From Sialis fuliginosa (Eukaryota; Arthropoda; Insecta; Megaloptera; Sialidae): a stretch of DNA of 64,000 nt. Where the stretch lies: the NCBI GenBank assembly GCA_961205875.1, contig OY540819.1:5954501-6018500 (forward strand). Direction: 5' to 3'. A program made the position numbers and the translations under genes. The notes under the pieces were generated by a model. The model was not told the origin of the DNA. It saw only the letters and a list, made by a program, of their open reading frames with translations, and searched no databases. This document shows, in pieces, positions 15,539 through 39,400 of this stretch (positions are counted from its first letter, which is position 1; each line of letters starts with the position of its first letter).

Positions 15539-16110
15539 GTCAGGGAAAAGTCAGGGAAGCCTAAAGTGGTCAGGGAAAGTCAGGGAATTTATTTAAAATT
15601 TTGAAAAGTCAGAGAATTTATTAATTTTTTTAGAAAGTCAGGGAAAAAAATGTATAAATTTAAGTTGAACAAAAAAAAAGAAAAACGTCATTGAATTGAA
15701 AAAGTAAGTAACAAGTGTAAAATTTTCAAGTTATGACCAAAAAAAAAAGTCTTCAAATTATATATTTATTTTTATTTTTTCCGAGTCAGGGAATTTTGAA
15801 TCTGTGGTCAGGGAAAAGTCAGGGAAGCCTAAAGTTGTCAGGGAAAGTCAGGGAATTTATTTAAAATTCTGAAAAGTCGGGGAATTTATTAATTTTTTTT
15901 AGAAAGTCAGGGAAAAAAATGTATAAATTTAAGTTGAACAAAAAAAAGAAAAACGTCATTGAATTGAAAGTAAGTAACAAGTGTAAAATTTTCAAGTTAT
16001 GACCAAAAAAAAAGTCTTCAAATTTTATTTCTATACATTCTTGCCCCGGGGCCCTCCGAGTCAGGGAATTTTGAATCTGTGGTCAGGGAAAAGTCAGGGA
16101 ATTTTGTTTC
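15539..16110. repeat. ~270-bp tandem repeat with GTCAGGGAA motifs
   Basis: A unit of about 268-273 bp occurs twice almost unchanged, and the start of a third follows. GTCAGGGAAAAGTCAGGGAA begins near 15539, 15808 and 16081. Each complete unit has several GTCAGGGAA(A) words, an A-run with TGTATAAATTTAAGTTGAAC, and CATTGAATTGAAA. The open frame at 15999-16226 lies in this repeat and is not a gene. GTCAGGGAA-rich repeats of this kind occur widely in invertebrate genomes; their transposon class is not clear from the sequence. Confidence 0.75.
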
Positions 16111-16583: not shown

Positions 16584-19500
16584 ATGGAAAACCAGCAGGT
16601 TTGGGTTAGGGATTCCCATGAAGGGTACATCCTTGGCAAGATATATGAATTATTAGGAGATGAGGCAGAAGTGATTCCACTTGATTCACGATATCCCAAA
16701 AGGACATGTGGTTTTGATGACATCTTTCCTGCAGGGGAATACATGAAAGATGTTGATGACAATTGTAAATATTTTTTTCAATTTTTATTAGCACACTTAT
16801 AAATATGTAATGCTTATCTTTTATTTTAAGGTGAAATGATGTTTCTGAATGAAGCTACATTACTATATAATATCCGTACTAGATACAATTTAGATAAAAT
16901 TTATGTAAGTATTAATTAAATACAAAACTGAGTTAAGAGTACTATTATAAATTAATATATTTTATTTTAGTCGTATGTAGCCAACATTCTAATAGCTGTT
17001 AATCCTTATGTAGAAATAAAAGATTTATATTGTTCAAAGGCAATTAAAAGTTATCAAGGAAAATCATTGGGAGTAATGCCACCTCATGTTTTTGCCATCG
17101 GTAAGAAGTTTTATAATGATATCAATTTATGAAATTTAAATTATATAATTTTTTTATAGCTGATAAATCGTTCCGTGATATGAAGACGTTAAAACAATCT
17201 CAATCAATTATAGTTTCTGGAGAATCAGGTGCCGGGAAAACAGAATCGACAAAGTATATTTTAAAATATCTTTGTGAGTTGTTTGGTTCAGCTGCAGGAC
17301 CAATCGAACAAAAAATTTTAGATGGTATGTTTATAATTTATACAACCAGTCTACTTATTGTTAATATGTCTTTTAAATTGCAGCAAATCCTATTTTGGAA
17401 GCGTTTGGAAATGCGAAAACCACCCGCAACAATAACAGTTCTCGGTTTGGTAAATTTATCGAAGTACACTTCAACTCAAAGTATCAGGTTGTTGGTGGAC
17501 ACATATCTCATTATTTATTAGAGAAGTCACGGATATGTATTCAAGGGTCTGGAGAGAGAAACTATCATGTTTTCTATTTACTTTGTGCAGGCGCATCTAA
17601 GACGTTACGAGATAAGCTACACATAACAAAACCTGATGATTATCATGTAATTATATTTTTTGAATTCAAATTGATAGAAAATATTTTCAAATAAAAATCT
17701 AACTACCCAAAAAACATCTTAAAATATGATATTTCAAATTTGATTTTCTTTTTAGTATTTACGAAACGGTTGTACTCAATATTTCACTACACGCACTTCA
17801 GATAAGAAACTAAGTCCTGACCAAAAGAGTAAAGAATACATATCCAATGGATCCCTTAACGACCCACTCCTTGATGATGTAGAAGACTTCAATCAATTGG
17901 ACAAAGCTTTAGATCGTACTGGATTAGGAGAAAATGAACGGTTTCAAATATACTCTCTAGTAGCATCGGTTTTACATCTTGGAAATATAACGTTTGAGGA
18001 AAACCCTGAGGATGCTAAAGGTGGCTCGAGAGTTGCTGTTGGTTCTGAAAAATCATTGGTTATTGCAAGTAAATTATTAGGGGTCGATCCAATGGAATTA
18101 AGACAGGCATTAGTTTCAAGAGTGATGCAAAGTAGTAGAGGAGGAATGAAAGGAACAGTGATAATGTAAGATTGTTGTTTAATATATAAAACTTGCTTTA
18201 AGAGTATCTTTTAAGGTTTTATTATGAAATAATTAATGTGTTACAAATTATTTTTTAGGGTGCCTTTAAAAGTTTATGAAGCAAATAATGCCAGAGATGC
18301 CTTATCAAAATCACTTTATAGTAAACTGTTTGACTATGTTGTAAATCGTATAAATAAAAGTATTCCATTTCAAGCATCAAGCTATTACATCGGTGTATTA
18401 GATATTGCTGGTTTCGGTAAGATTTATAGAAACTAATTTTCATTGAAAAAACTTATTAATGTCCCATATTTATTTTATAGAATTTTTCACTGTTAATAGT
18501 TTTGAACAGTTCTGTATTAACTATTGTAATGAAAAACTACAGCAGTTCTTTAACGAAAGGATTCTTAAAGAAGAACAAGATTTATATAAGAAAGAAGGAT
18601 TGAATGTTCCTGAAATAAAATATGCAGATAATCAAGATTGTATCGGTAAATATAAATTAAAATATTTCTACTATACAATTGTTCTAATGTTTTGATTTAT
18701 TGTATAACAGATTTAATAGAATCAAAAGGAACAGGTATATTCAGTATTCTAGATGAAGAATCTAAATTACCCAAACCAAATTACATGCATTTTACATCTG
18801 AAGTCCATTCTCGATGGTTGAATCATTTCCGATTAACATTCCCACGAAGTTCCCGCTTAAAATCACACAGAACTATTCGAGATGATGAAGGATTTTTAGT
18901 CCGACATTTTGCCGGAGCAGTCTGTTATGAAACTGTATGTACATGTATATAAAATATTATAAATTATTTTATCACTAAATTGAACTATTGTTTTAGAATC
19001 AATTCATCGAAAAAAACAATGATGCTTTACATGCTTCGTTAGCATGTTTAGTTCAAGAAAGTTCAAATCCTTTCCTCAATGTTCTCTTTACAAATTCAGA
19101 AAATGCAACTCAAAAAGGAAAACTAACATTTATCAGTGTTGGTTCAAAGTTCAAGACTCAACTTACTGAATTAATGGACAAATTAAAAATCAATGTAAGT
19201 ATAATAAAAAGTGAATTTCAATATATATTACGATTAAATTAATGTATGAATAAAATTAATACAGATATAATATTCTTAGGGTACAAATTTTGTCCGCTGC
19301 ATCAAACCCAACACAAAAATGGTCAGTCATCAATTTGAAGGAGCTCTCTGCTTGACCCAATTGAAATGTTCTGGTATGACAACAGTATTGGAACTCATGG
19401 AACATGGTTACCCATCTCGTGCTCCGTTTAATGAGTTATATAACATGTATGAGTCATACTTACCTAAAGAATTAAAGAAGTTAAACCCAAAGATTTTCTG

Positions 19501-22500
19501 TGAGGCTATGTTACACAGTTTGAATTTATACGAAAAAGACTACAAGTTTGGTATAACGAGGGTGTTTTTCCGACCTGGAAAGTTTGCTGAATTTGATAGA
19601 ATTATGAAATCCGACTCTGAAAATCTAAAATCCGTAGTAGCAAATGTTAAAAAATGGTTAGTTAAATCTAGATGGTTGAAATCACAATTTGCTGCTTTAG
19701 CTGTGATAAAAAGTAAGTCAGTGGAATTTTATCTACAGAATTTATTGTTATCTCAAATTTTATTTTTTTAGTTAAAAACCGAATGAAGTATCGTGAAAAA
19801 GCTTTAGTCATAGTACAAAAAACTGTCCGTGGTTATTTAGTTAAGAAGAAGTACATGCCACGATACAAAGGTATCAAAAAAATTAAAGAACTGAATTTAA
19901 AAGTAAAAGATTTGCAAAATATTGCTGCACAAATTAAAAAAGACAGGACAGCAAGTGAGGCTGATATAAAAAACATTACAAAGGATATTGAAATTGCAAT
20001 CAGCAAAATTAAGGTAAACTATTTATTTTACTATTTAAATATGTACCATCTCCTATTTATGTTTATTATTTCTTTTAGAGTTCCGATAATATAAATGAGT
20101 CTGAAATTGAAAAAATAACTAAACAATTAGTAGACCATACAAATAAACAAATGGAGACTCTTCAAAAGAAAATGTTAGAGCAAAAGAATGCTGAAGAACA
20201 GGAACGTCTACGTAAAATTCAAGAACAGATGGAACTTGAGAGAAAACGTAAAGAAGAAGAAGAAAGAAAGAAACGTGAAGAAGAAGAAATGCGTAGAAAG
20301 TAAGAATTATTTTTTGTCATATACTGACCCAGATTAATTTTAATTATTTTATAGGAAAGCAGAAATGGAAGCAAGGAGGAAAATTGAAGAAGAATTACGT
20401 AGAAAGCAAGAAGAAGAGGATAAAAAAATGGCGGCAGCTTTGAAAGAACAACTGGAGCGTGAGGCTCTTGAAAATCGGAAAATAAAGGAACAACTTGAAC
20501 AAGAACGTCAAGACCATGAACTCGCTCTACGATTAGCTGAAGAATCTAATGGGCAGCTAGAAGATTCACCTCCATCTGTTCGTAGGTATGACAAGGACAC
20601 TTATTTTTTGTATATATTCATAAAAAAAATTATAGTTGCCCTCTTAAAATTACATAAAATTGATTAAACTTACATTTACATAAGGGGGAATAGGTAACAA
20701 AAAAATACTTATAATATTAAGTACTTACAGTATTTTTTGTGATAAAAACGACCATATTCTAGATGATTTGTAAATTTTTATTAACTGTATATATTTATGT
20801 ATAATAACATGGCATATAGATTCAAGAAACTATTTTCTATACTTCTGTAAAAAAATTCTGTGATGAAAAGTTATTCCTTTAGTAACAAAAATAAAATAAG
20901 CAAATGGCATCCTTTATAACAAAAATGAAAATAATTTTCATATAGTAAGTAGTTAAGTATAGTTGATCTTTCTTTGAAATGGATAAATCTTTTTTACAAA
21001 CTTGAAAACAATATATGTAGGTACAATTCTTAAAAATATAACTAAACAAGAAGGTTAATACATGTTTTATTACTTCTTATCTCATATTAATAAATATAGT
21101 ATGTAATTTGAGCATCAATAAATTAATGATCAGCAAAATAGGCATGTGTTTAGGTCCCTCTGAAGAAAGGAATTTGTCATTATGTATTTGTATCTCGATT
21201 TATTCAAGAAATATTACCCTTGTTCTTGTTTATATAAGAAGGATTCTAAATTTCATTTGTATGCTTAGGGTCCAAAATGATGTAACCTTATTATGTAATT
21301 TTGTATTAAACTGTACATAAACCCAAGCCCCTTGTAAATATAAGCTACAATGTGTATTATTGTCCACATAAATGAGAAGCAATGATGATAAACTATATCT
21401 GTCATCATTGCTTCCAGTGTTATGCTTTATGGGTCCCCCATCTTTTTCTGTGCTTGTTTCCATGGTAATTGTCTTACTGCACCCACAGTGGCAGCTCGGA
21501 TGTCTGCAGTTTCCCGAACCATAGGCTCATCAGGTACCTTTCTATGATTTTTCTTGGTTGCTTTGTGTGATACCGTTAATTGCTTTTTGTTCTTTCATTT
21601 TGCATGAAATCTTATATTTGAATAAAACTGGAAGTTGTTAGGTATATCAGAAATACAATGTAAACATTGATTGTCATTTAATAAGTTAGTGGATGTATTA
21701 AAACTTTGTAAACTTATTTGTTTCTGGTATATCTATTAATTCTTAACAACTAACATAATTTTGAATCTCCAGTTTTATTATATTTTTTTAACATTTTATA
21801 TTTACTGCACATTAACTTTGGGTGTTTTTATTTTTATTTCAGTCAAATTGCATGCTGTATGAATACTAACGTAACTAATGTGAAAATATTTGCTTGTTGA
21901 GGTTATAATTGTGGAATACTATTACATAATGATTTATTTTCAGATCGGAAGCAGTTCGTAATCAACAGGCAGCTCAAAACAACAAGAAATTTGACTTATC
22001 AAAATGGAAATATTCTGAGCTACGTGATACGATTAATACGTCTTGTGATATTGAATTACTAGAGGTAAAATACATACATTAATTTATAAGGTTATGAGGA
22101 TGATTAATTATGAAATAATCAGTGATTAGGGATATGATTTTGAAGCTATTCTAACTAGAGAAGAGTGAACCATTGGCATCCTCATAATTTCTAGTTTAGA
22201 AATTAAGTACCATAAGTCTAAGATGTTATGGTTAATTGATAAAATTAATAATTTTAAACTATCTATGATAAAGAACAATTTATTATACTTTTAGGCATGT
22301 CGTCATGAATTCCATCGCCGTTTGAAAGTCTATCATGCATGGAAAGCAAAGAACCGTAGGCGAACTACAATGGATGAAAACGAAAGAGCTCCTCGATCAG
22401 TAATGGATGCAGGTACATTATTATTTACATAAAATATTTAATAAAAGTTATTAATTAAATATTTTTATAGCTGCAAGAGCACCTCGCCTGCAACAGAAAA

Positions 22501-22919
22501 TCCCAATAACACAAAATTCACATAGATATTTCCGCATTCCGTTTGTGCGTCCGTCAACAACAGGAATCACTAACGGGAACGCTGATTCGGGAACAAATAA
22601 ACGTGGTTGGTGGTATGCACATTTCGATGGACAATATGTGGCCCGCCAGATGGAATTGCATCCAGATAAAGCAGCTATTTTACTTGAAGCTGGTGGGTAT
22701 TTTGTTAGCCCCTTTATTAATTAATAACGATTATTTGAAATATCTATTTTGTATACTTTTCATCTAGGTGTTGACGATATGCAGATGTGTGAGCTTAGTT
22801 TAGATGAGACAGGCTTGACTCGTAAACGAGGAGCTGAAATATTAGAGAATGAATTCAATCGTGAATGGGAGAAGAATGGGGGCAAGCCATACATTAGTGC
22901 AGGCGATCGAAAAAAATAA
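16584..22919 (+). CDS. jar: Unconventional myosin VI heavy chain
   Basis: Minus-end-directed actin motor for endocytic traffic, anchoring and cell shape. Coding exons: 16584-16764, 16831-16904, 16971-17100, 17160-17324, 17384-17646, 17756-18165, 18259-18416, 18481-18645, 18711-18934, 18997-19194, 19280-19712, 19772-20013, 20079-20299, 20355-20585, 21944-22064, 22295-22412, 22471-22692, 22768-22919. All introns are GT-AG; they join into 1235 codons, the usual family length. The ATG at 16584 follows an acceptor at 16570 and precedes the family's N-terminal segment. Visible features: P-loop GESGAGKTE (149-157), relay/actin region with [20 protein letters not shown], converter ending [10 protein letters not shown] (about 753-762), the myosin-VI-specific reverse-gear insert with a Trp-rich calmodulin site (about 762-800), one IQ motif (about 805-830), a highly charged single-helix region (about 925-1020) and the cargo-binding domain with HRRL (1079-1082) and GWWYAHFDG (1157-1165). 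C terminus GDRKK. Very secure. Confidence 0.96.
20586..21943 (+). other. Myosin VI intron 14 (1.36 kb), hosts a cassette exon
   Basis: This is by far the longest intron inside the coding region; most others are 60-110 bp. It separates the charged helix from the cargo-binding domain, the position where vertebrate MYO6 carries its alternatively spliced large insert. It contains the candidate 45-nt exon at 21489-21533. The corresponding intron of tail copy C (30009-31498) aligns along its length at roughly 90% by eye, with indels, an (AT)19 tract and a MITE insertion. Confidence 0.85.
21489..21533 (+). CDS. jar: Candidate in-frame 45-nt cassette exon of myosin VI
   Basis: A pyrimidine-rich tract runs into TTACTGCACCCACAG|TGGCAG, and 45 nt later CATCAG|GTACCT provides a donor. 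Exon 14 ends with two codon bases and exon 15 supplies one; inserting 45 nt keeps the frame and introduces no stop, adding 15 residues ([15 protein letters not shown]-type: Ser-rich, ending basic). The 45 nt are identical in tail copy C (30841-30885), and the ~140 bp around them differ at about one base, while flanking intron differs by about 10%. Vertebrate MYO6 has alternative inserts at the same tail position that change cargo choice; homology to those is not claimed. Confidence 0.6.
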
Positions 22920-23974
22920 CAAAACATTTATATTTAGTTATAAATATTACGGAAATTTTTCTTTTTTAATTGCATTTATTTATAGGTAATCATATCTAAT
23001 ATATTAAAGAATTTTGTTGTAAAAATGTTTAAGAATGGGAATTAATAATAACAATATTGTTAATTAAATATTTAACATTCCATAGAAGACTAGTCTGTAT
23101 TTATTGTCAAAGATATATCTTTTGTATTACACAAAATTGTAAATTCAATATTATATATTATTATTATCTTTCAAAAATAAATAAATTTTGATTTATATTT
23201 TGTATTGTTTATTTATAATACCTAAAACATACTATATTATAGTAAACTTTTTTAATATAACGTACAATGTTAAAATTTTTCCATATTGACCTTCAGAATT
23301 CAAATCATGTTAACAATTCAATCGTGAATTACACATCTCTAGCGTAAATGAATAAGGTGGGCACTTAAGCATTTATACAGTTTGAATTTTCAAGATCAAT
23401 ATGGTAACATTATTATTATTTGCTAAATCTATAATAATACAACAAGTGAGATTTGAAAAAATATTGTAATGAAATTTTAGATTAATCTACATAAATAGAT
23501 TGATATTATAGAACAGTTTTTATTTTATTTTATAGAATTAATAATGTATCTAAAAATATTTTACCAATAGATAATGTAGGTAGAAATGTATTTAATTTAG
23601 AACTTATAATACCTATATTATTTTTTGAGTAAAATATACATGATAGTAATAAAAAGATTAGAACTAATAATTATCGATTGATAAATTGGTGTGCTAAGAA
23701 ATGCCCCCCCCCCCCCCCCCCCCTACAGAAGCTGATAGGGTTCTAACCTGTGGACCCGAGGTTAAGGGAGGTGCAGCAAATGAATAAGCTTTTTTGTTCT
23801 TCAAAAAAAATTTATTAGATTTTTTTGGTCTTTTCTTAGATTTCTTAATATGAAGAGGCCTGCCGAAAACCCTAGCTTTGGGGTCCGCAATAGGAAGTGA
23901 TTGTACCATTATTTTATATTTAATAAAATAATTTAATTTTCATAACTCAAGAGAAATACTTAAATATAAAATTA
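22920..23974 (+). other. Myosin VI 3' UTR and spacer
   Basis: The 3' UTR follows the stop at 22917-22919. The first good poly(A) signal pair, AATAAATAAA, is at 23176-23185, giving a 3' UTR of about 280 nt. After that the sequence is AT-rich spacer with a C-run at 23704-23722 and a short GC-richer stretch (23723-23900) whose small open frame on the - strand has no recognisable similarity. No gene seen. Confidence 0.6.
23176..23185 (+). terminator. Poly(A) signal of myosin VI
   Basis: Overlapping AATAAA hexamers (AATAAATAAA) stand about 260 nt after the stop codon, followed within 40 nt by a T/G-rich stretch (TTTTGATTTATATTTTGTATTG) suited to cleavage. It is the first canonical signal after the CDS. 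Confidence 0.6.
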
Positions 23975-24276
23975 AATAGTCTCCAAAATCTCTTCGAAAG
24001 TGTTTGATTTCTTTCAAGGTAAAATGTAACAATTTGATTGCATTTTAAAACTATGTAACTTATGTTCATAAAAAAAACTTAATTCGTTTATGATGTACTG
24101 AAAAAATAATAAAGAAAAATGTATTTGTAACAAAGGAACCCTGAATTATTAAAATCATAAACCGATTTTCGTGCCACCCTGTAAATAAATAAAACAATAA
24201 CAAAAATGTTATCTACAGAATTTATCTTTATCATATTTTTTTTTAAGTTAAAAGTCTATTTGTTATTATTTATATG

Positions 24277-24421
24277 TAGTTAAGAAGAAGCAAATGTCAC
24301 GATAAAATTAAGAATTGATTGTGAATTTATGAGTGGACTTGAAATATTGTTAAACAAAACAGCGAGACGAATATCAAAAAATTCACAGAAGATATTAAAA
24401 TAGCACTTAATAAATTAAGGT
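24277..24421 (+). pseudogene. Degenerate myosin VI exon 12 (block 1)
   Basis: TAGTTAAGAAGAAGCAAATGTCACGATA matches parental exon 12 around its [10 protein letters not shown] segment with two substitutions. The 3' end, AAACAGCGAGACGAATATCA through GATATTAAAATAGC to ATTAAG|GTAAACTATTTA, matches the parental exon end and its donor. The middle has decayed and the frame is lost. It shows that the old duplication took in at least exon 12 to exon 18. Confidence 0.75.
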
Positions 24422-25128
24422 AAACTATTTAATTATGTATGTATAATACGCTTAAATTAACATTAACATGCATCACAATGGCTGCTAAAATAAACGATAT
24501 TTGGAAATCTGGACCTGTACGTGTGTTCATTTTAAATCTTATCACCTGAATATTTAATTTATTTATAAAGTTGCTTGGAGTTTAGGGAGAAACAAAATGG
24601 CGTTGTTAGTTTTTGATTTGATGGATACTTTTAACATTTTACATTTAACAAAAGAATTATAGTAGATTTAAAATTGTAAAAAATTTTCACTTTGAATCTT
24701 AGTAGTGGAAAATTATTTCAGATTTTTTATAATATTTTTAAATTATTTTTTGCTTCAATAAATTGTATAGCAAAAGATACACAAAATTCTGAAAATTATT
24801 TCAAGTTTCATTAAATCAAAATAAACATTTTGTGTTTTTTGAAATTTTTCTCAGAGTTCATGGTTTCTGAATAAAAAATTCTTGAAAAACCGAAATCTAA
24901 TTATTTTTAAAATGTCTTGTAAAATGAAATGGTGCAAAATATTTAATACAAAAGCTGCTTGTTTTTCCGATAGAATAAGATACCGTTATAAAAAATAAGT
25001 TTCAATCTAAAAAAACGTAACTTTGATTGATCTTGAAAACGTCCGCCAAATAAAAAAATTTTAGCGCTATTTTTTTATTTTTTTTACCGTAACGTGTACA
25101 ATTTGGTTCACAAAAGTGGAGATATAAC

Positions 25129-26504
25129 CAGGGCCGGATTAACAACGTAGCAGGAGTAGCAAATGCTACGGGCCCCGCGACTTTGTGGAAAAATATCTCT
25201 TATTGGACTTACCACTTATCGTCCAATGGTTGATACGGGGTGTCGAAATCTACAATAATAATTATTATTGTAGATTTGGATTTAATTATAATTAATAATT
25301 TAAATTTAGGGTTTCCGATCTCGATTCGATTTAATCGAAAAATCGATTTTTGAATCTCCGATCTTTGATTTTTTTAATCGATTTTTCTTGCTCAAATCAA
25401 ATCAAGAAAATTTTGTTTGTAAAAGTGGTGTTTTATTATACACACCTCAAAAAAAAATTAAAGGATAATTAAAAAAAGGCAAAACAAAAAATTCTAATTT
25501 TCAAATAGTTATATTTCCGCGAAAATTCATTTAATTTGCATGTTCCAAAGCAAATTTAAAAGTTTGTGCTTTCTAATTTTTGAATAAAAATTTCAACAAA
25601 TTTTATCATCCCTTTTCGTTCTTTTCCAAAGGTTAAAAGGGTTCAAAAAAATATCCCTTAATTTTTTATTAACTTATCAACTTTTTTAAGGATTGTATAT
25701 TCTAAATCAAGCAGTCAGCGGCGTAGTTAGAGGGTGGGTAGGGGGACGGAGCGGTCCGACCCGGGTGACAATCTGAAGGGGTGGCACCTGTCTTATTTGT
25801 TAAAAAGTAAAGCCTATTTACCCATAGACATAGAGCATGGACCGCGCATCTGATTTGAAAACAAAGCCGTGTCAAAAGAAATAGATGGAAAATGATTTGG
25901 GATATACTTGTCCTTATTTAATAATTCATTTATTTCATTCTTATTAGAAAAAGAGAGAGATGTATCTCGAAAAAAATGGTGTACTATTTCTTCAAAACAG
26001 TGAGATAGACACGGTGGCGTTTGGTATATATCTATCTCTTTTTCTAATAAGAAAGAAATAGTTACTTCTGTTTAAATAAGGACAAACAATTTCTATCTCT
26101 TTCTTTTGACACGGCTCTGTTTTCGAGATAGATGCGCGGTCCATACTGTTACATGTTTATGGAATAATATTTACCTCTTTTTTGGTTATTTAAAGCTTCC
26201 AATGGGAAAAATGTCTAATAAATTGAGTGAATTGACTTTTTTTATTATTGAAAGTCTATAGAGGTGATGACCATCCAATTTATTTAAAAAATAGATCCCA
26301 CTGATACTTTTATGTCATTAAAAATTCACAGGGGGTGACGCCCGCTTAATGTGCAAAAAAATCCTATTTACTTTTTTCGGGGAGAGTGGGTGAAGCTATC
26401 GATTTACTCCCCGAGTTTCACCCCCCCCCCCTCCACCGACACCACTGCCAAGGGCCTCTTTATAACATTTGCTACGGGCCCCGCGCTTGCTTAATCCGGC
26501 CCTG
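25129..26504. mobile_element. 1.4-kb TIR element, hAT-like, in block 1
   Basis: It starts CAGGGCCGGATTAA and ends with its exact complement TTAATCCGGCCCTG; just inside, CTACGGGCCCCGCG appears at both ends. No transposase was found, so it is non-autonomous. It contains a second foldback element (25823-26150), a perfect 32-bp palindrome (25246-25277) and C/G runs. It lies where exons 14-15 of tail copy B would be expected and is flanked by an unusually long 27-bp direct repeat (25100-25126 and 26505-26531) rather than a simple 8-bp duplication. Confidence 0.75.
25823..26150. mobile_element. Foldback MITE nested in the hAT-like element
   Basis: The arms are imperfect inverted repeats: CATAGACATAGAGCATGGAC, CGCGCATCT, AGCCGTGTCAAAAGAAA, TTGTCCTTATTTAA and TTCTTATTAGAAAAAGAGA on the left recur reversed on the right. 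Related sequence appears as a half copy at 26555-26645 and as a larger element at 36829-37547. There is no open frame of note. Confidence 0.7.
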
Positions 26505-26554
26505 AATTTGGTTCACAAAAGTGGAGATATAGATATAACCCAATCAATACTCTA

Positions 26555-26645
26555 TCCTTTTTACACTTTAGATCAAACGGCCACGCTCTATCTCCTTCTT
26601 TTGCGACGACTCTATTTTCGAATCAGCGGTCCATGCTCTATATCT
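26555..26645. mobile_element. Half copy of the 25823-26150 foldback family
   Basis: GCTCTATCTCCTTCTTTTG, CGACTCTATTTTCGA, ATCAGCGGTCCATGCTCTAT match the right arm of the foldback at 25823-26150 in order. The other arm is missing. It ends some 20 bp before the acceptor of tail-copy-B exon 16. Confidence 0.5.
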
Positions 26646-26667
26646 AATTTATTTATTTCATTTCTAG

Positions 26668-27298
26668 GCATTTTATCATGATTTCCATCGTCATTTGAAG
26701 ATCTGTTATATTTGGTAAACAATTAACCATTCACGATCAACAATGGACGAAAACAAAAGAGTAATGGATGCAGGTATGTAAGTTAATATTTACTGAAAAT
26801 ACTTAACAAAAAGTTATAAATTAAATATTATTATAGCTGCCAGAGCACCTAAAATACATAAGAAAATCCCCAAATCGAAAAAATCATATAGATATTTCCG
26901 TATTCCGTTTGTGCGTTCGTCAGCAATAGGAATCACTAACGAGAATTCTGATTCGGAAACAAATAAACGTGGTTGGTGGTATGCGCATTTCGAAGGACAA
27001 TATGTGATTCGCCAGATGGAACTACGTCCAGATAAAGCAGCTGTTCTACTTGTAGCCGGTTTGTGTATTTGTTAAACCCTGTAATAATTAATAACAATTT
27101 AAAGTATTTATTTGGCATTTTTTTCATCTAGGCGTTGACGATATGCAGATGTGCAAATATAGTTTAAATGAGATAGGCCTGACTTATAATCGAGATGCTG
27201 AAATTTCAGATAATGAATTCAATCTTGAATGGGAGAATAATGGAGGCAAGCCATACATTAGTGCAAAACGTTCCCGGAATTTGTGTTTTATTCTATAA
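26668..27298 (+). pseudogene. Myosin VI tail copy B (exons 16-18), partly broken
   Basis: Exons with kept splice sites: 26668-26773 (exon 16), 26837-27058 (exon 17), 27132-27298 (exon 18). Exon 16 has a TAA at 26716-26718, a 12-nt in-frame deletion, and RRL changed to RHL, so the cargo motif is damaged. Exon 17 keeps exactly 222 nt, no stop, and GWWYAHF; exon 18 is open to TAA at 27296-27298. Amino-acid divergence from the parent is clear, yet no indel occurs in exons 17-18, which hints at past or present constraint. The product ends in a basic KRSR stretch and CFIL, a CaaX-like motif. Exon 16 of the parent could splice to 26837 in phase. Either a decaying pseudogene or an alternative terminal cassette. 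Confidence 0.75.
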
Positions 27299-28719
27299 CG
27301 TAAAGAAAACACATTATAACCAGTAGTAGACTAAAAGGGAGACGAGAGGGGCGGTCTGGAAATAAAAAAAAATGTGAAGAGCTTTTAGAAGTCACCAATC
27401 AGCTGGAAGAGCCAAAAGGTCTTAAAGGATTGCAATAGCAAATGCTTTTTATATTTGTTAAAAAAATTATTTTTCTTATTCTATTTTTTTCCATAACGTG
27501 CAATTAGGAGGGGGGGGGGGGGTAACTATCATTCCGCACCGGGCTACAAACCACTTACCATAATATACCAAAATAAATTTGTTCAAAGCTGTTGAAAATT
27601 ATCAACACTATAGAAATTTCAAATTATTTAAAAATATATTATATTAAACAGGGCTTTATCAGTGAGAATATGAATTATGCAATGAAAAAGTTAACACAAT
27701 CATCATGTTTTTATTTAAACTTGGGTGGGAGTAAAAAAGTCATATTGACGCTACCAATGGGGTTATAATTATTTGCAAAAAATACATTATGTATGAATGG
27801 ATTTTCTAATTTTAGGGTGAGATAAGATTGTACCAGTAGCATGGCCCACAGAAAGGATGGAATTACATTTCTATTTTTTTCTGCTACTGTCTTATCCGTC
27901 AATAAAATGTGTAAATATTAGTATAATAAAAAAATACATCTACCTAATTCAAATTATTCATTGTTTTATTTATTTATTCAATAAAATATTATATTACAAT
28001 AAATACAATATAATTTAATTTTAATTTGTACAAATTACAAATTTTTCATCAGATAAACATATATAAATAAAATTACATTATAAAATAGTTAATCTGTCCA
28101 TTATACTTTTAAAGTGTGACACACATTTGTATAAAAATTGACTATCTAATTTTTTTACCAATTAACAATTAGTTATATAAAAGTTATATTGATATATGTA
28201 ACCTATTAGGTATTTCTCCAAAACTTACAATATATTATTTATATAAATTGTCAAATTGAAATTTTGAAATCTAAAATTAAATATTTTTTAGTCATATTTC
28301 ATGCTTCTTTCAACTTTCCATAGAAAACTCAATTTAAAAATAAGAAAATTAAAAGGAACATCATAACTTACTTTACAAATAATAATTTTCATTATTTTTC
28401 ATCTAGTTCACGTCGGATCACAATCGTGACCCGAAAAATTCAAGACCCGCACTCCTATATTCAACACAAAACATAATAAATTAAGAATATATGGCAATTA
28501 CAACGAAAATTTTTTACAACTAAAACTTTTGGTTAAGCTATAATAAGTAATACATAAATAAAACAATATTTTAAATGTTATTTTAAAGAAAACTATGGGT
28601 AAATAAAACCAGTTTCAGGCATTTTAAATAACCTGATACGTAAAATACTTAAATGAGGCGGCGGGCCGCACAAAAGAGCGCGGCGGGCCGCATGTGAATT
28701 ATATTTTATTTATTATACT
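27299..28719. other. Spacer after tail copy B
   Basis: Up to 28250 this is the 3' part of block 1, including a G-run (27507-27521) and an extra stretch (27560-27965) lacking in block 2. AATAAA signals near 27979-27989 could end a copy-B transcript. From 28250 to 28720 the sequence is not shared with block 2; it has two GC-rich GGCGGGCCGCA words (28658-28692). No gene seen. Confidence 0.5.
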
Positions 28720-29006
28720 TATAGTCTTAAAAATCTCTTTGAAAGTGCAAATAGTTTTGATTTTTTTCAGGGTAAATTGTAACAATTTGATTGCATTTTA
28801 AAACTATGTACGTAGAAAAAATAATAAAGAAAAGTGTATTTGTAACAAATAAGCTCTGAATTATTAAAATCATAAACCAATTTTCATGTCACCCTGTAAA
28901 TAAATAAAACAATAACAAAAATGTTATCTACAGAATTTATCTTTATCATATTTTTTTTTAATCTTTTTTTTTCAAGTTAAAAGTCTATTTGTTATTATTT
29001 ATATGT

Positions 29007-29104
29007 AGTTAAGAATTGATTGTGAATTTATGAGTGAAGGACTTGAAATATTGTTGCACAAAACAGCGAGACGAATATCAAAAAGATATTAAGTAAAATA
29101 AGGT
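29007..29104 (+). pseudogene. Degenerate myosin VI exon 12 (block 2)
   Basis: Shorter, more decayed version of the block-1 relic: TAGTTAAG, AATTGATTGTGAATTTATGA, ACAAAACAGCGAGACGAATA, then AAAATAAG|GTAAACCATTTAATT at the old donor. It shares the same losses as block 1, so the decay largely predates the block duplication. Confidence 0.65.
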
Positions 29105-29777
29105 AAACCATTTAATTATAATAAATTTAATATTAACGTTATAATGCTTCAAAATGGCTGCTAAAATAAACGACATTATACATGTGCAGTGTCGGGTTTA
29201 TATTTTTGCTGCGTATAGGCCCATTTATTGTGCAGATGTTGACTAAAAAAAGTTAATCGGGTATTATTTCTTGAACATTTGATAGTTGCTAACAAAAGTA
29301 TAATCGTTGAAAATATGCCCCCTTCATTTGCTGTTATATATAGGCCCAGATCTATTTGGAAATCTGGGTCTGTACGTGTGTTCATCTTAAACCTTACCAC
29401 TTGAATATTTAATTTATTTAATAGGTTGCTTGGATTTTAGGGAGAAACAAAATGGCGTTATAAGTTTTGGATTTGACTAATGTTTTTAACATTTTACATT
29501 TAACAAAATAATTATAGATTGAAAATTTTCCAGAATTTTCATTAGGAAACTTAGTAGTGGAACATTATTTAAGATTTTTTATACTATGTGCAATTGGATT
29601 TTTTAATTATTTTTTGCTTAAATAAATTGAATAGCAAAAGATAAAAAAATTCTAAAAATTATTTCAAGTTTCATTAAATCAAAATAAACATTATATTATG
29701 TTCTTTGAACTTTTTCTCAGAGGTGATGGTTTCCGAGTAAAAAATTTTTGAAAATCCAAAATCTAATTATTTTATAG

Positions 29778-30184
29778 CAAAGTAGAAATGGAAGCCAGGA
29801 GGAAAATTGAAGAAGAATTACGAAGAAAGCAAGAAGAAGAGGATAAAAAAATGGCGGCAGCTTTGAAAGAACAACTGGAGCGTGAGGCTCTTGAAAATAG
29901 GAAAATAAAGGAACAACTTGAACAAGAACGTCAAAATCATGAACTCACTCTACAATTAGCTGAAGAATCTAATGGGCAGCTAGAAGATTCACCTCCATCT
30001 GTTCGTAGGTATGACAAGGATATTTATTTTTTGTATATATTCATAAAAAAAAATTATAGTTGCCCTCTTAAAATTACACAAAATTGATTAAACTTACATT
30101 TACATAAGGGGAAATAGGTAAAAAAATGTCTTTTAATATTAAGTACTTACTAGAAATCTGTATTAGTGTTTTTTGTGATAAAAA

Positions 30185-30228
<44 letters not shown>

Positions 30229-32589
30229 GTATAATAACATGTGTATAGTATATACAGATCCAAACAATGTTTTCTATACTTTTCTGTAAAAAAAAAATTA
30301 TGTAATGAAAAGTTATTCCTTTGGTAACAAAAATAAAATAATTAAATGGTATCCTTTAAAACAAAAATTAAAATAATTTTCATATAGATTGTAAAATTGA
30401 CCCTTTCTTTGAAATGGACAAATCTTTTTTACAAACTTGAAAACAATATATGTAGGTACAATTCTTAAAAATAGAATTAAACAAGTGTTATTTGTGATAA
30501 AAAATTATTGTAGATTACAAGTTTTATTATTTTTTATCTGAACTTATCTCATATAAATAAATATAGAATGTCACTTGAATATCAATCAGGGCTACATTTA
30601 CCACTAGGCAAAATAGGCATGTTCATTATGTATTTGTAATCTTGATTTATTCAAGAAATATTACCCTTGTTCTTGTTTAAGGACCCTAAATTTCATTTGT
30701 ATGCTTAGGGTCCATAATGATGTAACCTTATTATGTAATTTTGTATTAAACTGTCATCATTGCTTCCAGTGTTATGCTTTATGGGTCCCCCATTTTTTTC
30801 TGTGCTTGTTTCCATGGTAATTGTCTTACTGCACCCACAGTGGCAGCTCGGATGTCTGCAGTTTCCCGAACCATAGGCTCATCAGGTCAGTGCCGTAGCG
30901 AGCATAATTGGCGCCCGGAGTACGATACCTTTTTGGCGCCCTCGAAAAACATAAAGTAATATAATACATCTATAGAATATCGTCGTCTTGGGGACCATTT
31001 GGCGCCCCTCTGTGAGTGGCGCCCGGGGCATGATAGACCCCCTTGCCCCCCCCCCCTCGCTACGCCACTGCATCAGGTACCTTTCTAAGATTTTTCTTGG
31101 TTGCTTTATGTGATAACATTAATTGCTTTTTGTTCTTTCATTTTACATGAAATCTTATATTCGAATAAAATTGGAAATTGTTAGGTATATCAGAAATATA
31201 CAGAATACAATGTAAAAATTGATTTTCATTTAATATGTTAGTGGATATATTAAAACTTTGTAAACTTATTTGTTTCTGGTATATCTATTTATTTTTAATA
31301 ACTAACTCAATTTTGAAACTCCAGTTTTATTATATATATTTTTAACATTTTATATTTACTGCAGATTAACTTTGGGTATTTTTATTTTTATTTCAGCCGA
31401 ATTGCATGTTGTATGAATACTAACGTAACTAATGTGAAAATATTTGCTATAATTTGCTTATAATTGTGGAATACTATTACATAATGATTTGTTTTCAGAT
31501 CGGAAACAGTTCGTAATCAACAGGCAGCTCAAAATAACAAGAATTTTGACTTGTCGAAATGGAAATATTCTGAGCTACGTGATACGATTAATACGTCTTG
31601 TGATATTGAATTACTAGAGGTAAAATACATCCATTAATTTATAAGGTTATAAGGATGATTAATTATGAAATAGTCAGTGATCCTAATTTAATTAGAGGAG
31701 ACTGAACCATCTGGCATCCTCATAGAAATTAAGTAACATAAGTCTAACATGTTATGGTTAATTGATCAAATTAATAATTTTAAACTATCTATGATAAACA
31801 ACAATTTATTATACTTCTAGGCATGTCGTCATGAATTCCATCGCCGTTTGAAGGTCTATCATGCATGGAAAGCAAAGAACCGTAAGCAAACTACAATGGA
31901 TGAAAACGAAAGAGCTCCTCGATCAGTAATGGATGCAGGTACATTATTATTTACATAAAATATTTAATAAAAGTTATTAATTAAATATTTTTATAGCTGC
32001 AAGAGCACCTCGCCTGCAACAGAAAATCCCAATAACACAAAATTCACATAGATATTTCCGCATTCCGTTTGTGCATCCTTCAACAACAGGAATCACTAAC
32101 GGGAACGCTGATTCGGGAACAAATAAACGTGGTTGGTGGTATGCGCATTTCGATGGACAATATGTGGCCCGCCAGATGGAATTGCATCCAGATAAAGCAG
32201 CTATTTTACTTGAAGCTGGTGGGTATTTTGTTAGCCCCTTTATTAATTAATAACGATTATTTGAAATATCTATTTTGTATACTTTTCATCTAGGTGTTGA
32301 CGATATGCAGATGTGTGAGCTTAGTTTAGATGAGACAGGCTTGACTCGTAAACGAGGAGCTGAAATATTAGAGAATGAATTCAATCAAGAATGGGAGAAG
32401 AATAGAGGCAAACCATACATTGGCGTTGACGGTATGCAGATGTGTAAATATAGTTTAAATGAGATAGGCTTGACTTATAATCGAGATGCTGAAAATTCAG
32501 ATAATGAATTCAATCTCGAATGGGAGAAGAATGGAGGCAAGCCATACATTAGTGAAAAACGTTCCCGGAATTTGTGTTTTATTCTATAA
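29778..32589 (+). CDS. Myosin VI tail copy C (exons 14-18, intact frame)
   Basis: Exons 29778-30008, 31499-31619, 31821-31938, 31997-32218 and 32294-32589; the first four have exactly the parental lengths and phases, all GT-AG, no stop. Exon sequence is about 97% parental by eye, introns 16-17 nearly identical, intron 14 about 90%. HRRL and GWWYAHFDG are intact. The last exon is enlarged: a parental-type terminal module runs directly, in frame, into a B-type module, ending basic KRSR plus CFIL. From the first ATG (29788) the exons give a 325-residue headless protein (charged helix plus cargo domain). Phase also allows exon 13 of the parent (donor 20300) to splice to 29778, giving full-length myosin with this tail. 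No head, no exon 12-13 copy and no promoter are visible, so expression is unproven; it may be a recent pseudogene. Confidence 0.6.
30187..30224. repeat. (AT)19 microsatellite
   Basis: Pure AT dinucleotide run of 38 nt in intron 14 of tail copy C. The parental intron has only a short TATATATTTATG at the same place, so it expanded after the copies separated. Confidence 0.95.
30841..30885 (+). CDS. Copy-C version of the 45-nt cassette exon
   Basis: Identical over 45 nt to 21489-21533, with the same CACCCACAG acceptor. The donor is now GTCAGT: GT comes from the target site and CAGT from the first bases of the MITE at 30888-31070. The frame to exon 15C stays open (with it the headless product would have 340 residues). 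Confidence 0.5.
30888..31070. mobile_element. 183-bp hAT-type MITE in tail copy C
   Basis: Ends CAGTGCCGTAGCGAG and CTCGCTACGCCACTG are near-perfect inverted repeats. The 8-bp target CATCAGGT is present on both sides (30880-30887, 31071-31078) and exactly once in the empty site of the parental gene (21528-21535). The interior holds GGCGCCC words and a C-run. Insertion therefore followed the tail duplication. Small open frames on both strands here are part of the element. Confidence 0.95.
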
Positions 32590-33434
32590 CGTAAAAAAAT
32601 CATACTATAACTAGTAGTGGACTAAAAGGGAGACGAGAGGGGCAGTCTGAATCATCAAAATATCATCAAAATAGCCGGAAGAGCCAAGAGGTCTTAAAGG
32701 ATTGCAATGGCAAATGGTTTTTAAATTTGTTAAAAAAAATTTTTTTTCTTGTTCGATTTTTTTGTAACGCGCCATTTGGAGGGGGGATAACTATCATTCT
32801 GTCACGGGCTACATCATTTTTTAGTCTGCCACTGACCATAATATTACCAAAATAAATTTAATATTCTTTTATTTATTTATTCAATAAAATATTATATTAC
32901 AATAAATACATTATAATTTAATTTTAATTTGTAAAAATTACAAATTTTTATTAGATAAACATATATAAATAAAATTACATTATAAAATAGTTATTCTTTC
33001 CATTATACTATAAAAGTGGGGCACACATTTGTATAAAAATTGACTATCTAAATTTTTTTACCAATTAACAATTATATTGATATATGAAACCTATTAGGTA
33101 TTTCTCCAAAACTTACAATATATGATTTATATAAATTGTCAGTGATAATAAATACATTGGCATGTACACTAGGTATCTCAGAATTTGATATTATAATACC
33201 TTATATTAAATAAAAATAATCTAGCTTATTTTAAAATACCCCACAACATCTATAATTACTAATAGTAATAAATATAAAAACTACTAATTGTACATATACT
33301 TTGTAACACAAAAATAATGGTCAACACTTTTGTTACAAAGAGTATAAACAATATATTCATAATTCAACTACTATATGATATAAATCACAGTAAAATTTAA
33401 AATACTTTAATATAACTTAATATGGCTTGTTTCA
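32590..33434. other. Convergent 3' region between tail copy C and FAAH2
   Basis: The 845 bp hold block-2 sequence to about 33140, then unique AT-rich DNA. Poly(A) signals for both directions sit together at 32868-32888. No gene seen. Confidence 0.6.
32868..32888. terminator. Back-to-back poly(A) signals
   Basis: TTTTATTTATTTATT reads as overlapping AATAAA hexamers on the - strand (for FAAH2) and is followed at once by CAATAAAA on the + strand (for tail copy C). The same arrangement exists in block 1 near 27970-27989. For FAAH2 it would give a 3' UTR of about 560 nt; nearer signals cannot be excluded. Confidence 0.4.
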
Positions 33435-36400
33435 TTAATTGACTGTTTCTGGAGGAGGTATCCAGCCCCCAAAGGCTTTTTCCAATTCTTCTGCGACAGC
33501 AAGACAAAGGCGATCCTGATGGGGGCCTGCGACAACCTAAGAAACAATTAAAAATATATAACAAATATCCACTGATATGATATTTTCGATTAATAAATAT
33601 TTGAGTCCAATCTTTACTATATCCTCACCTGTATTCCGTAGGGTAACCCATTTTCATCTAATCCCATAGGGACATGGGTAGAAGGAAGGCCCAAAACGTT
33701 AAATATCATGGAATACATAACGCCGGAAATTCTCATGTAAGCTTGACGATGGTAATAGGCAGGAGTTGGGAATGTTGGGTAGAAAAATACTCCATTATAC
33801 CCTAGTTCTTCCTGAAAGTAGAAATTTATTAATTATAATACGTAAACAGGTAAACATTATATTTCTGAATACAATCAATATTTTCTATTAGACTGCCTCT
33901 ACGCTATATCGAAGATACGAAAAGCTTTGTGATATATCGTTTTAAAATGAAAAAAATGGTCTCCGATTTCAATTTTTTTTATTTGGAAGTTTTTGTATTT
34001 TTTTGTTGAGGTAAATTTAGGAGACAAACAAATAAATAATAACAAAAAAATTCATTTACCTCCCTCCATTCTCATGAAATAAGTTATAGGAAATTAGAAA
34101 TTGATAAAAAACTTTTTTTTTATAAGGAACTAGTTTTTATTCAAAAGTTCTTTAGACATATTCTGACGCAAATAGAATTTATGAAACAAATAAATAAAGA
34201 CTTTGTATAAAAAAAAGTTGACCCAATAGGTCACGAAAACCCGAAAATGTGTCATACGGCTCGTAGTAGTTACTTCATAAATATAATTAATGATGATTTT
34301 ATAAAATAGAAAAATGCCTCGACATCCATACATGTTTTTATGTATGTTTTTGCAGACATTTTTTTACTTATTTTGCTTTGGGCAAATCTGCCAAACTCAT
34401 TGTCCAATTTGACAGATTGACCATTCATCAAAACCATCCAAATACGTCATAGTATTATGAATGATTTCTTTAGTACTTATACTTATTGTTTGTAAACGGA
34501 TTTGAACTTAACCTACGTAGTACATTAGACAAAATGATGAATACTTTCATACATCTTACCTTGAACTTTTGAATCACTTCAGTTCGCATTTTATTATAGT
34601 AAGGTATGTTAGATTTAGGAATAAAGCAGTTGCTTTTGTTCAAGAATTGAAAACCCAATCCTGCAAATGTTATTTGGGAAACGCCGAGCATAGATTTGAT
34701 AATTTCAGCGACGAAGTTTTTCTCTTTCTGAAAAAGTTAGACATCATTATTTTCATGAATTTTTCTACGTTAATCACAATATCTTACCTTAGGATTTTCG
34801 GGATCTTTTAATAAATTTGGGACATCAGTCATTGAGAAAAAGTTACCACAGCTTAGTTCACAAGAATATTGCATATTGATGAATTTAGCCTGAAATAAAA
34901 TATTAGTAATTATTATTAAAATCAAAGCTGTACTTGTTAGTATAGGAGAGGCTTAAACTTAAAACTCCAAAATTTCAGATGACTAACAATAAATTCAGTT
35001 TTTTACAGGGGCTTAGAAATACTTCATATTTCCCCATGATACCAAAATCCTGTTAAAAATTTTCTTTTTATGTTAAAATTATTTATATACGTACAGATTC
35101 CACAGAAGTTCCAAATTTATTTTTGAAATGTTCGGCTGCTCTGTGAACTGCTTTTTGAATATATTGTTCGACTGGTATCAACAAAATTGATTCAGCTCCC
35201 CGTTCCATTGTATGTATTTTGATTTTCGAAAGATCAACCTATTTCAAAAAAACATTTTAATTTAGTTACATTTTTAGAGGAATAATGTTAAAAATATAAG
35301 TACCTTTTCATCGAGTCTTAAGTGAGGCATATTATCAGTTCCAATTTTCATAAGCAATTTAAGATCTTCAGCATATCTTGTCATTGGACCCATAACTAAT
35401 ACTTCTTGGAAGAGTTCATCTACTGAATTTGGTAAATGTCCTTCGATTGAAATGATTCCTTTTGAAAATAAAATAAAATTTTTGTAAAATGCTATTTTAT
35501 TTTAATTCAGGGTTCTGACACTCCTATTTTTCTAAGAAAAATACTTTTTTGTAAACAAAATTGTAATTTTGTATTTCAAGATTTTTACTTTCACTTTGTA
35601 ATGTTGAAAAATAAGCTAATGTATTTTTTAAGAATTAAAAAACAATAATAAATATAACTATAATAATATGTACATATATCATAAAGTGAAAAAAAAAGTT
35701 TATTAAAAATATTTAAATATTCAAATATTGAACTAATCAATTGATTACAACATTATTTAAAATATATCTTTGAATGAATATTTATAAATGCTAGCAATTA
35801 TTGAAATACATAATATTATTAACTAAATAGTATTTTACATCACTGATTAACAGTCATAATTATTATTATTATTATTTTTTTAAATTATATTCACAATATA
35901 TGCACTAGATTCTTCTAAATAAAACTGGTTTCTTTAATTTAAGGACATAAAATATTAGTGATAAACACAGCATTCTACGAAAATCCGTTGTTTGCCTTGC
36001 GTCAAAAGTTTGTTAAATCATGACCTACACTAAATTTTATAAAATTTCAATGACCGTGTTGTATTTCTACGTAAACATTAAATATTGTAAATGTTTGCAA
36101 TTAATTATTTAAAACATTGTTTAATAACGGAGGTATTGAATCACTATATTTATGAATTTGGAAGAATATTAAAATGCATGCTTACCCCCAGACGGTTTAT
36201 GACCGAATATTCCGTTGAACATAGCAGGAAGTCGAATTGAACCAGCAATATCTGAACCTACTCCGATCACAGATGCTCCACTGCCTAATAAAGCTCCCTG
36301 AAAATAAAATTTTATTATAAAATTCGTGTATATATTAGAACAAGAAATTAAGATAAAATTATTCTTTACATTTAAGGGTACAGTATACAGTATAAAATTC

Positions 36401-39400
36401 TCTTTGTGTACAATTTTTCAAGTTTGTATATATTTGTAATATTTTTATGTTAATGGTATAATATTTTTATGTTAATGGTACTGTATTTTTTTTATATATA
36501 TTATATTTCACATTGATAATGGTCCTGTGAATGGAAATGTTGCTCGCAAATATTTTAACATTGATACAATTAATTTTTTTTTTCAAAATAATATTTCTAC
36601 TCCAGTTCGCTCTTCTATTCTATTCCGCTTGCTTTTATCGTCCGATTGAAAGCTATTAAATTGTATTATATAGTCAATCATCAAATGTTTCCTAAAAAGT
36701 AATTAAGGGGAGAAAACGACCTACAATAATTTAAAGTTTACATACATTTATTTCGAGAAAATTATATCTGAAAACCATAAACACGCTTTCTGCCATCATA
36801 AGAATATTTAAGCCATTCCCAAGGAGCCATGGGTAAACTCATAAACATAGAGAATGGACAGTGCATTCTGTATTAACTCAATGGTGTAACGTCTGTTCAA
36901 AAAGGGAGAGAGAGATGCAGTGTAGTTTGGAATATATCTACCTCTTTTTCTAAGAATCTGATTGGTAGCTTACTATAGTTCAGGGTAGTATTTCTGTCAG
37001 ATGTATTTTTGTATATCTATCGTGTGATTTTTGTGCAATAAGTTTTTTATTAGAAAGGTAAATAATATAAATAATAAACATACTATAATTGTTCATATTT
37101 CATCGAGGAAATTAAAAAAAAAAACATCAATTGATCTGATAGAAATTTGCAAAATTATGAACGGATATTCCGGGAAAATAACAATTTTGCTACCAAAAAT
37201 ATTAAATATATATTAATAAAAAATAGTTTTAAATCAATACCCACGTGGTTGCTACAAAATGATGAGGTGGATTACACTTACAAACAGCACATACAAGATT
37301 TACTTAACAAAATTTTAAATATTTTTTTGATATTAGGTTACATTACGAAGCTACGAAAAAGGAAGAACTTAACCTCTTTATATATATCTATGAATATTTA
37401 TAATATTCGGGGCCAAGAATGAAATAGTTACACTCCTGTTTAAAAAAAGGACAAGTATATTCCAAACCTGTTTCTATCTCTTTCTTTTGACACGACTCTG
37501 CTCTCGAGTCAGATGCCTGGTCCATTCTCTATGTCTATGGGTAAACTATATTTTGACTAATATATACAAGTCATAGATAACAAACGCAGAAGGTTGGTTT
37601 TTCGAATACCTATTATATTATCGTATTGTTGATAGGCCATACACTTTGCATAAAAATCTTTCTACAGTGTTGTATATTGTATATGTCTGTGACCCACGGA
37701 TGATGCTCGTGGCAGCGAAATTGTTAAATTAGTATAATAACCAAAGGTTTTATTTTCTATATATAATTAAAAACAAACTGTTTCTCATTGAAAATGATCA
37801 AGATTTAGATATACAAGCTTGGTTCTTTAATAAATCATTATGTTCGGAAAACGGTAATGACATTGAGGGACGTATAAGAGTTCATTTACTCCAGAGTCTA
37901 CGTTTTTAAAGAACGTATTTTTTATGTTCCAAGGTCTTGCCAGTTTTCCATTTAATATTATTATAGATTTGTACTTAAAACCTTTTACGTAAATATCGTT
38001 TCAAGGTACGACAGAGACTTGTGTTCTAAAAGGTTAGATTTAATGCAGAGTTTGTTCTTAAGTATCTGGTTGGCAGTGATTTTAAAACAGTTAAAGAGTG
38101 GGTGTGACTATAGCACTATTAGAATTATGTTTACTCAAAAACCAATTGTTAAAATATATATAGGTACAACAACATATTATTTCTAATCACTTTTGAATGA
38201 TTTTCGTTATTTTTGATCGAGACCAATTTCTTTACAGTATCTTTTGATATTTTTCAGCTAAAAATTATAAAATAGAAAACGTAAAATAAAAAATAAAGTT
38301 TGTACAGCACTGGGTTATTGTTCTATTATGGAGTTATTCCATCATATGTGATTAAATGAGTTTATTTGAACAAAAGCTGTCAAGAAATTGAAGTGTACCG
38401 ACATTTAATAGATATTTCACAATTTTAAAAGTCCTAATTGCGAGAGTTTTTTGTTTACATATTAAATAACGATATAGTATTGATTGGCTGGTATTATAAT
38501 TATATGTAAATATTATTTAATTAATGATGTAAATGTGTAAATATTTATATTATTTATATTATTACGCTCATGTACCATATATGTTAATAGTATTAATTTT
38601 ATTTATATGTGTCACATTATGTCCAATTTATCATATTAAAAAAAAATCATTATTTTTACTTGACTCAGAACTTTTTGGAGTGGGCGCCTAAATGATTCAT
38701 AATAATTATTTCAAAACTACAAATCACCTATTGCATCAATATTCATCTACAAAATAATAAAACGGCCAAGTACGTGTTCGGCACGCACATTATAGGGTTC
38801 CGTAGTCATTCTCACAACGATTTATAAAAAAATACTTATTTAAAAAATTTTCAGAAACTATTTTTGCCACAGTGTTCGTTATAATTTTCTTTGAAAGTAG
38901 TAATTAAAAGCTATATTCTGGAATTATTTCAGATTTTTTGAATTGATAGTTTGATAACGAGATTTAAAAGCAAAATCGTGACATTTTTTGTTGCATTTAA
39001 GGATACCTATCAAAAACCAATGGTTTAAGTGAAAATTTTTTTTTAATATAATTTTCAGTCGATGGAAAGGGTTTTTTTGGGTTATCGCTCTTCGTCCATT
39101 TACTCAATTTCATCTTAATCGGTATAAAATTTATATGAGCGAAACTATAAGGATTCCTAGTTTTCTACGGAACCCTACAAATGATTTTTGTTTATAATGT
39201 GCAACAAAAAAACAAAAAAAAAACGGAACGTGAATAACGTGATAATTTCCCTTTCATTGAAATTGTAGAAGAAAGTGGTTTAATTACCATTCATATCGAC
39301 CTTCAAAGTTTTGTGGTATTTTATACAACCGGCACGCAAAGCAATTGTTTTTTCTTATACGGGAATTGTGTATTTTTATTGAACTATTTACATTCTCAAA

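Follow-up and report, generated by a model that had tools for sequence, protein, structure and literature searches.

We describe the myosin VI locus of Sialis fuliginosa. It lies within a window of 64,000 nucleotides, bases 5,954,501-6,018,500 of contig OY540819.1, in a genome of 392 Mb and 20 contigs. One further contig, of 15.6 kb, has a match to COX1 with 11 internal TGA codons. Downstream of an intact myosin VI gene (gene A), its cargo-binding tail is present in two further, partial copies on the same strand (copies B and C). Probably, gene A is a single-copy intact gene whose 3' end underwent a two-step partial tandem duplication at the DNA level. C would be a young, as yet unbroken chimeric duplicate with little or no function, and neither copy would make a needed product. 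The other reading is that C is a working tail module. It would provide a second, longer tail by read-through splicing or from its own promoter, and the animal would then have two natural tails or a motorless competitor. From the sequence, we consider this possible but doubtful.

An intact gene and two partial copies of its tail

Gene A is complete and reads as a single open frame. It holds a myosin motor domain, with Pfam Myosin_head matched over positions 1-679 of 679 (E 1.5e-238). The class VI lever arm and cargo-binding domain are present as well (MYO6_lever, 1-136 of 141; Myosin-VI_CBD, 1-90 of 90). The tail of A matches solved myosin VI chains in the PDB, among them 8w41, 3h8d and 2kia (10 distinct sequences with the others). 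Two AATAAA signals of gene A are found at 23176 and 23180, and the window contains no N. Upstream of the start codon of A there is also a short direct repeat of about 100 bp (15735-16101, 80%).

The likeness among the copies is far beyond chance, as judged by their alignments. As an example, A and C share 92.5% identity over 1381 columns (blastn). We searched the whole 392-Mb genome with the 281-residue tail of A. All 13 matches fell within the present locus (best candidates scored, 11/11), and no further tail locus was found elsewhere. A retrocopy or a capture by a mobile element was rejected, because the introns are kept and the genome search found no copy elsewhere. A full second gene that lost its head was also rejected. 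The best match to the head exons in the window outside A has an E value of only 1.6, so no motor domain was found for C, and the most 5' remnant corresponds to intron 11.

An earlier note on this stretch had proposed a complete 18-exon myosin VI gene, with exons 16-18 repeated downstream as copy B and exons 14-18 as copy C, all on the same strand. Our analysis confirms this layout. The earlier note missed the upstream extent of B and its broken exon 16, the mosaic nature of C, the probable re-copying of its 3' part and a candidate cassette exon. The coordinates of all features are given in the table.

Table. Features of the myosin VI locus of Sialis fuliginosa (positions within the window).
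Feature	Position	Strand	Evidence and remarks
Gene A, 18-exon myosin VI (motor, lever arm, cargo-binding tail), 1235 residues	16584..22919	+	GT/AG borders at 17/17 introns; Pfam
Candidate 45-nt cassette exon of A, in frame, 15 residues	21489..21533	+	AG/GT borders; intron 14; identical in C
5' part of B: decayed remains of intron 11, exon 12 and the beginning of intron 12	24205..24448	+	blastn
Dispersed short repeat in B, like a miniature inverted-repeat transposable element (MITE); also at the 5' edge of C (to 29773)	24678..24907	+	Genome search
Dispersed mobile element of about 1.36 kb, at the place of B exons 13-15	25133..26490	+	Inverted ends AGGGCCGGATTAA
B exon 16, broken	26668..26773	+	In-frame TAA; 106 nt instead of 118 nt (12 nt shorter)
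B exons 17 (26837-27058) and 18 (27132-27298)	26837..27298	+	Open, diverged; C-terminus different
Whole C unit	28721..33141	+	Flanks pair with B unit 23976-28253 (blastn)
C exon 14, ATG at 29788	29778..30008	+	9 differences from A in 231 nt; acceptor at the 10-bp microhomology junction
Candidate cassette exon, C copy	30841..30885	+	Identical to A
MITE-like insertion in C	30888..31070	+	Target-site duplication CATCAGGT; at least 41 genome matches, itself included; ends read from sequence
C exon 15	31499..31619	+	5 differences from A in 121 nt
C exon 16	31821..31938	+	3 differences from A in 118 nt
C exon 17, WWY motif	31997..32218	+	3 differences from A in 222 nt
C exon 18, made of an A-type unit (32294-32421) and, joined to it in frame, a B-type exon-18 unit (from 32422)	32294..32589	+

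Copy C is a mosaic of A and B

Copy C is an incomplete, intron-bearing copy that joins more than one genomic source. According to its blastn pairings, it is a mosaic with a B-type 5' flank, A-type exons 14-18 and then a B-type exon 18 and 3' flank. More precisely, the left flank (28721-29773) pairs with B 23976-24907, and the interior (29764-32421) pairs with A 20341-22895. The last part (32422-33141) pairs with B exon 18 and its right flank (27131-28253).

The left joint falls at a 10-bp match, TAATTATTTT, common to the B-side repeat and the end of A intron 13. Because of this position, the exon-14 acceptor was retained in C. The right joint lies inside exon 18, where the A-type unit lacks its last codons and reads in frame into the B-type unit. 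The last exon of C therefore consists of two exon-18 units and ends with the C-terminus of B.

Read exon by exon, C is open throughout and its phases are right, and exons 17-18 of B are likewise open, as had been claimed. C has a single stop, at its end. The frame of 325 residues from the ATG, also noticed before, is real. In it, Pfam finds a complete cargo-binding domain (residues 171-266) and, besides, a second match of unreported extent. The extra exon-18 unit is placed after the complete domain and would leave the fold intact. The RRL and WWY motifs are kept. All nine splice sites of C exons 14-18 score within the range of A. Directly after the stop of C there is an 86-codon stop-free frame (32595-32855, +).

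Copy B is decayed upstream and open downstream

The remnant at the 5' part of B consists of two pieces. The first (24205-24253) matches A 19725-19777 with 81% identity, and the second (24273-24448) matches A 19834-20041 with 65% (blastn). Exons 13-15 have no match in the window outside A and C. The space of these missing exons in B is filled by the dispersed 1.36-kb element and the MITE-like repeat.

Disabling mutations are present in B exon 16 and absent from B exons 17-18 and from copy C. In B exon 16, the RRL motif has also changed to RHL. Exons 17-18 of B cover positions 2-90 of the 90 in the Myosin-VI_CBD profile. Compared with A, their synonymous divergence (Ks) is 0.30 and their nonsynonymous divergence (Ka) is 0.147, with Ka/Ks of 0.48. 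They carry 31 amino acid changes. At sites where A shares its residue with the solved myosin VI chain 8w41, we count 13 of the 29 alignable changes, against 66 of 112 sites in the region (P=0.058). This site pattern gives a faint hint of past constraint on B.

Divergence among the copies and a possible order of events

A and C differ at 25 of 820 exon positions and at 124 of 1506 intron positions (8%; the 45-nt cassette and the MITE-like insertion excluded). There are 22 gap events between them. The intron differences are not evenly placed. Introns 14-15 hold 124 differences in 1373 positions, whereas introns 16 and 17 are identical (0/133). From exon 16 to exon 18, the tract shows 11 differences in 601 nt, compared with 138 in 1725 upstream (Fisher P=5e-9). 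Probably, the 3' part of C was re-copied later, most simply from A. If so, the openness of C there is weak evidence of function. Exons 17-18 hold eight nucleotide differences between A and C; B has the base of A at five of them, that of C at two and neither base at one.

B and C align in five pieces, with 150 differences in 1555 positions (10%; single pieces 4.2-15.7%). This value is indistinguishable from that of A and C in introns 14-15 (P=0.61), so that a single time of formation would fit. One template-switching event may have both duplicated B and taken up the A exons.

Tandem near-copies are a common cause of assembly errors, and the array might be an uncollapsed haplotype or a set of misjoined pieces. 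We regard such an artefact as very improbable. The introns of A and C differ by 8% and B differs from C by 10%. In addition, C has its own insertion, B has its own element and the window has no gaps.

We infer the following order for the favoured duplication. In a first step, a segment beginning in intron 11 and reaching almost to the end of exon 18 would have been copied downstream, giving B. B would then have decayed, lost exons 13-15 and taken in mobile elements. In a second step, a further copy of the B unit would have formed on its right side. Either in this event or in a later one, A would have contributed its exons 14-18 to the new B unit through the 10-bp microhomology on the left and the joint inside exon 18 on the right. 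The result would be the chimeric copy C with its double last exon. Later re-copying from A would have homogenised the 3' part of C.

Is copy C under constraint?

Constraint on C is unproven. The rate tests hint at past constraint in exons 14-15, and the site pattern gives no such hint.

Several observations weigh against the view that C makes no needed product. C has no premature stop and no indel in its exons, and its splice sites score within the range of A. The pairwise Ka/Ks between A and C is 0.25 (bootstrap 0.115-0.566). Exons 14-15 are less diverged than introns 14-15 (14/352 against 124/1373, P=0.0013). They also carry 7 nonsynonymous changes, where 13.6 are predicted for a neutral C branch (P=0.04, local rates). 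That exons 14-15 have no indel has P=0.06; counted over all exons at one rate, the lack of indels reaches P=0.0025, a value that ignores the recent 3' tract. Such deficits could be explained by purifying selection on C in the past, or by a re-copying from A that was biased to exons.

The strength of the deficit depends on the neutral rate. With a single neutral rate for all exons, the simulation gives P=0.0015. With local rates, set by hand from counts, it is weaker. Besides the value for exons 14-15, all exons of C together show 12 nonsynonymous changes against 18 expected (P=0.09). In exons 16-18 there is no deficit (5.5 observed, 4.4 expected locally).

We also considered strong purifying selection on C, as the Ka/Ks of 0.25 might suggest, and tempered this conclusion. 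A constrained gene A alone lowers the pairwise value (to about 0.5 by our own estimate). The apparent re-copying of the 3' tract and the changes at conserved sites temper it further.

The amino acid changes in C number 12 in 274 codons. Eleven of them align to 8w41, which is labelled Unconventional myosin-VI and which we take to be mammalian. At these 11 sites, A has the residue of 8w41 at eight and C at one. The background of shared positions is 155/267 (P for so few or fewer, 0.91). With eight of 11 changes at shared positions, conserved sites were thus hit as freely as by chance. Most of the amino acid differences look derived in C.

The basic WKA stretch loses one arginine, at its end, through the change R1095Q. 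In Drosophila, changing several residues of the corresponding WKAKNRKR did not disturb localisation, and the changed protein failed to rescue the sperm actin cones, according to the available part of the study (PMC3154908). The same part indicates that the mutant retained the last R of WKAKNRKR, and the position equivalent to R1095Q was thus unprobed there (PMC3154908).

Could copy C supply a tail?

The earlier note had suggested one motor with several alternative tails. Its structural premise stands. Exon 13 of A (last base 20299) can join C exon 14 in phase, and exon 16 of A (last base 22412) can join exon 17 of B or C. The 325-residue frame belongs to the same premise. The functional claim is weakened by the broken exon 16 of B, the apparent re-copying of C exons 16-18 and the changes at conserved positions.

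In one form of this proposal, read-through transcripts would be spliced from A into C after exon 13, 14 or 16. The protein would have the full motor, a slightly altered cargo-binding domain and a longer tail. Through exon 13 this tail would have 329 residues, compared with 281 in A (48 longer). Phases that agree at every exon, splice sites within the range of A, retained RRL and WWY motifs and the reduced divergence of exons 14-15 speak for it. Nevertheless, transcription would have to pass both AATAAA signals of A and skip A's own exons, and the amino acid changes do not avoid conserved sites. We hold this form to be unlikely.

In the other form, C would be a headless tail gene with its own promoter. 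Its motorless tail of 325 residues would rival full myosin VI in binding cargo, along the lines suggested for headless myosin X. The open frame from the ATG and the complete cargo-binding domain are in line with it, and headless Myo10 is a natural precedent (PMC6345916, as far as this source was available). However, C is immediately preceded by a dispersed repeat, and the ATG was inherited from A. We judge this form improbable.

If C is expressed, the animal would naturally carry a motorless or alternative myosin VI tail of the kind that cell biologists build by hand. Otherwise, the locus still clearly illustrates the rebuilding of a partial duplicate into a chimera.

A candidate cassette exon in intron 14

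Intron 14 holds a 45-nt stretch that is in frame between exons 14 and 15. It may be a cassette exon and a possible counterpart of the mammalian large insert. It sits in a 137-bp island (A 21399-21535, C 30751-30887) that is 99.3% identical between the two copies (blastn). The island has a G+C content of 48%, against 24% for the remaining intron. At the intron rate, one difference or none in 137 bp has P=6e-5 (uncorrected for the choice of place). The island was also considered as a mobile element and rejected, because it was found at two places in the genome.

The splice sites of the candidate are not strong. The acceptor is weak (-4.9, against 5.0-13.7 for the exons of A) and its score is reached by 1761 of the 2774 AG sites of the window. 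The donor is modest, with 4.5 in A and 7.2 in C, against 5.8-10.5; 425 of 3266 GT sites reach 4.5. In C, the MITE-like insertion begins 2 nt into the intron that follows the cassette. By alignment with solved myosin VI, the candidate lies on the N-terminal side of the cargo-binding domain, close to where mammals carry the large insert.

Mobile elements and neighbouring sequence

A query of 932 bases gave 69 genome matches. Three are in the locus, and the others are confined to the repeat at 24678-24907. The 1.36-kb element gave 103 matches (40 of 3762 candidates scored), and its near full-length copies across the genome are 86-92% alike.

Pieces of an amidase family are found at 33617-42919 (-) and probably belong to the gene that follows the array. 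Pfam PF01425 is above the cut-off at 36172-36417 and 42629-42919 and just below it at 33620-33832 (three of 16 frames submitted).

Comparison with known systems

Among the listed papers of the open-licence literature, judged by title and the start of the abstract, we found no description of a duplicated myosin VI tail array. The myosin VI gene is single in most animals examined, according to the part of PMC11040104 available. Diversity in its tail is known from splice variants. The accessible parts of PMC6981383 and PMC11040104 describe large and small inserts in mammals and a 14-residue insert in nematode HUM-8. In these variants, tail diversity alters cargo choice, and the candidate cassette is similarly placed N-terminal to the cargo-binding domain. 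Its 15 residues differ from the 21-31 residues of the mammalian large insert (PMC6981383). Those variants add short inserts to a single tail, whereas the locus described here has a second copy of the tail exons. If used, the cassette would extend the optional tail inserts of mammals and nematode HUM-8 to this lineage.

Two other myosins offer comparisons, as far as the sources were available. For headless myosin X, the proposal is that a motorless tail counteracts the full motor by dimerising and by competing for cargo (PMC6345916). That protein is encoded by an internal transcript of the gene for the full motor; here, the putative product would come from a duplicated tail. The insect muscle Mhc gene likewise has alternative exons in one insect myosin gene, which are mutually exclusive (PMC2257972). 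However, these exons belong to muscle myosins and are spliced within the gene, while the copies in Sialis fuliginosa lie downstream of the stop and poly(A) signals of A.

At the DNA level, the locus resembles chimeric and partial gene duplicates. Structurally changed copies of this kind make up 56-86% of duplicates in worm and fly and 11% in yeast, in the available part of the review (PMC3449122). As in those cases, the locus has an incomplete DNA-level copy of one gene, with a new end taken from a joint or flank. Unlike the partial duplicates in that part of the review, it would have passed through two successive rounds and a re-copying, which left C composed of an older and a newer copy.

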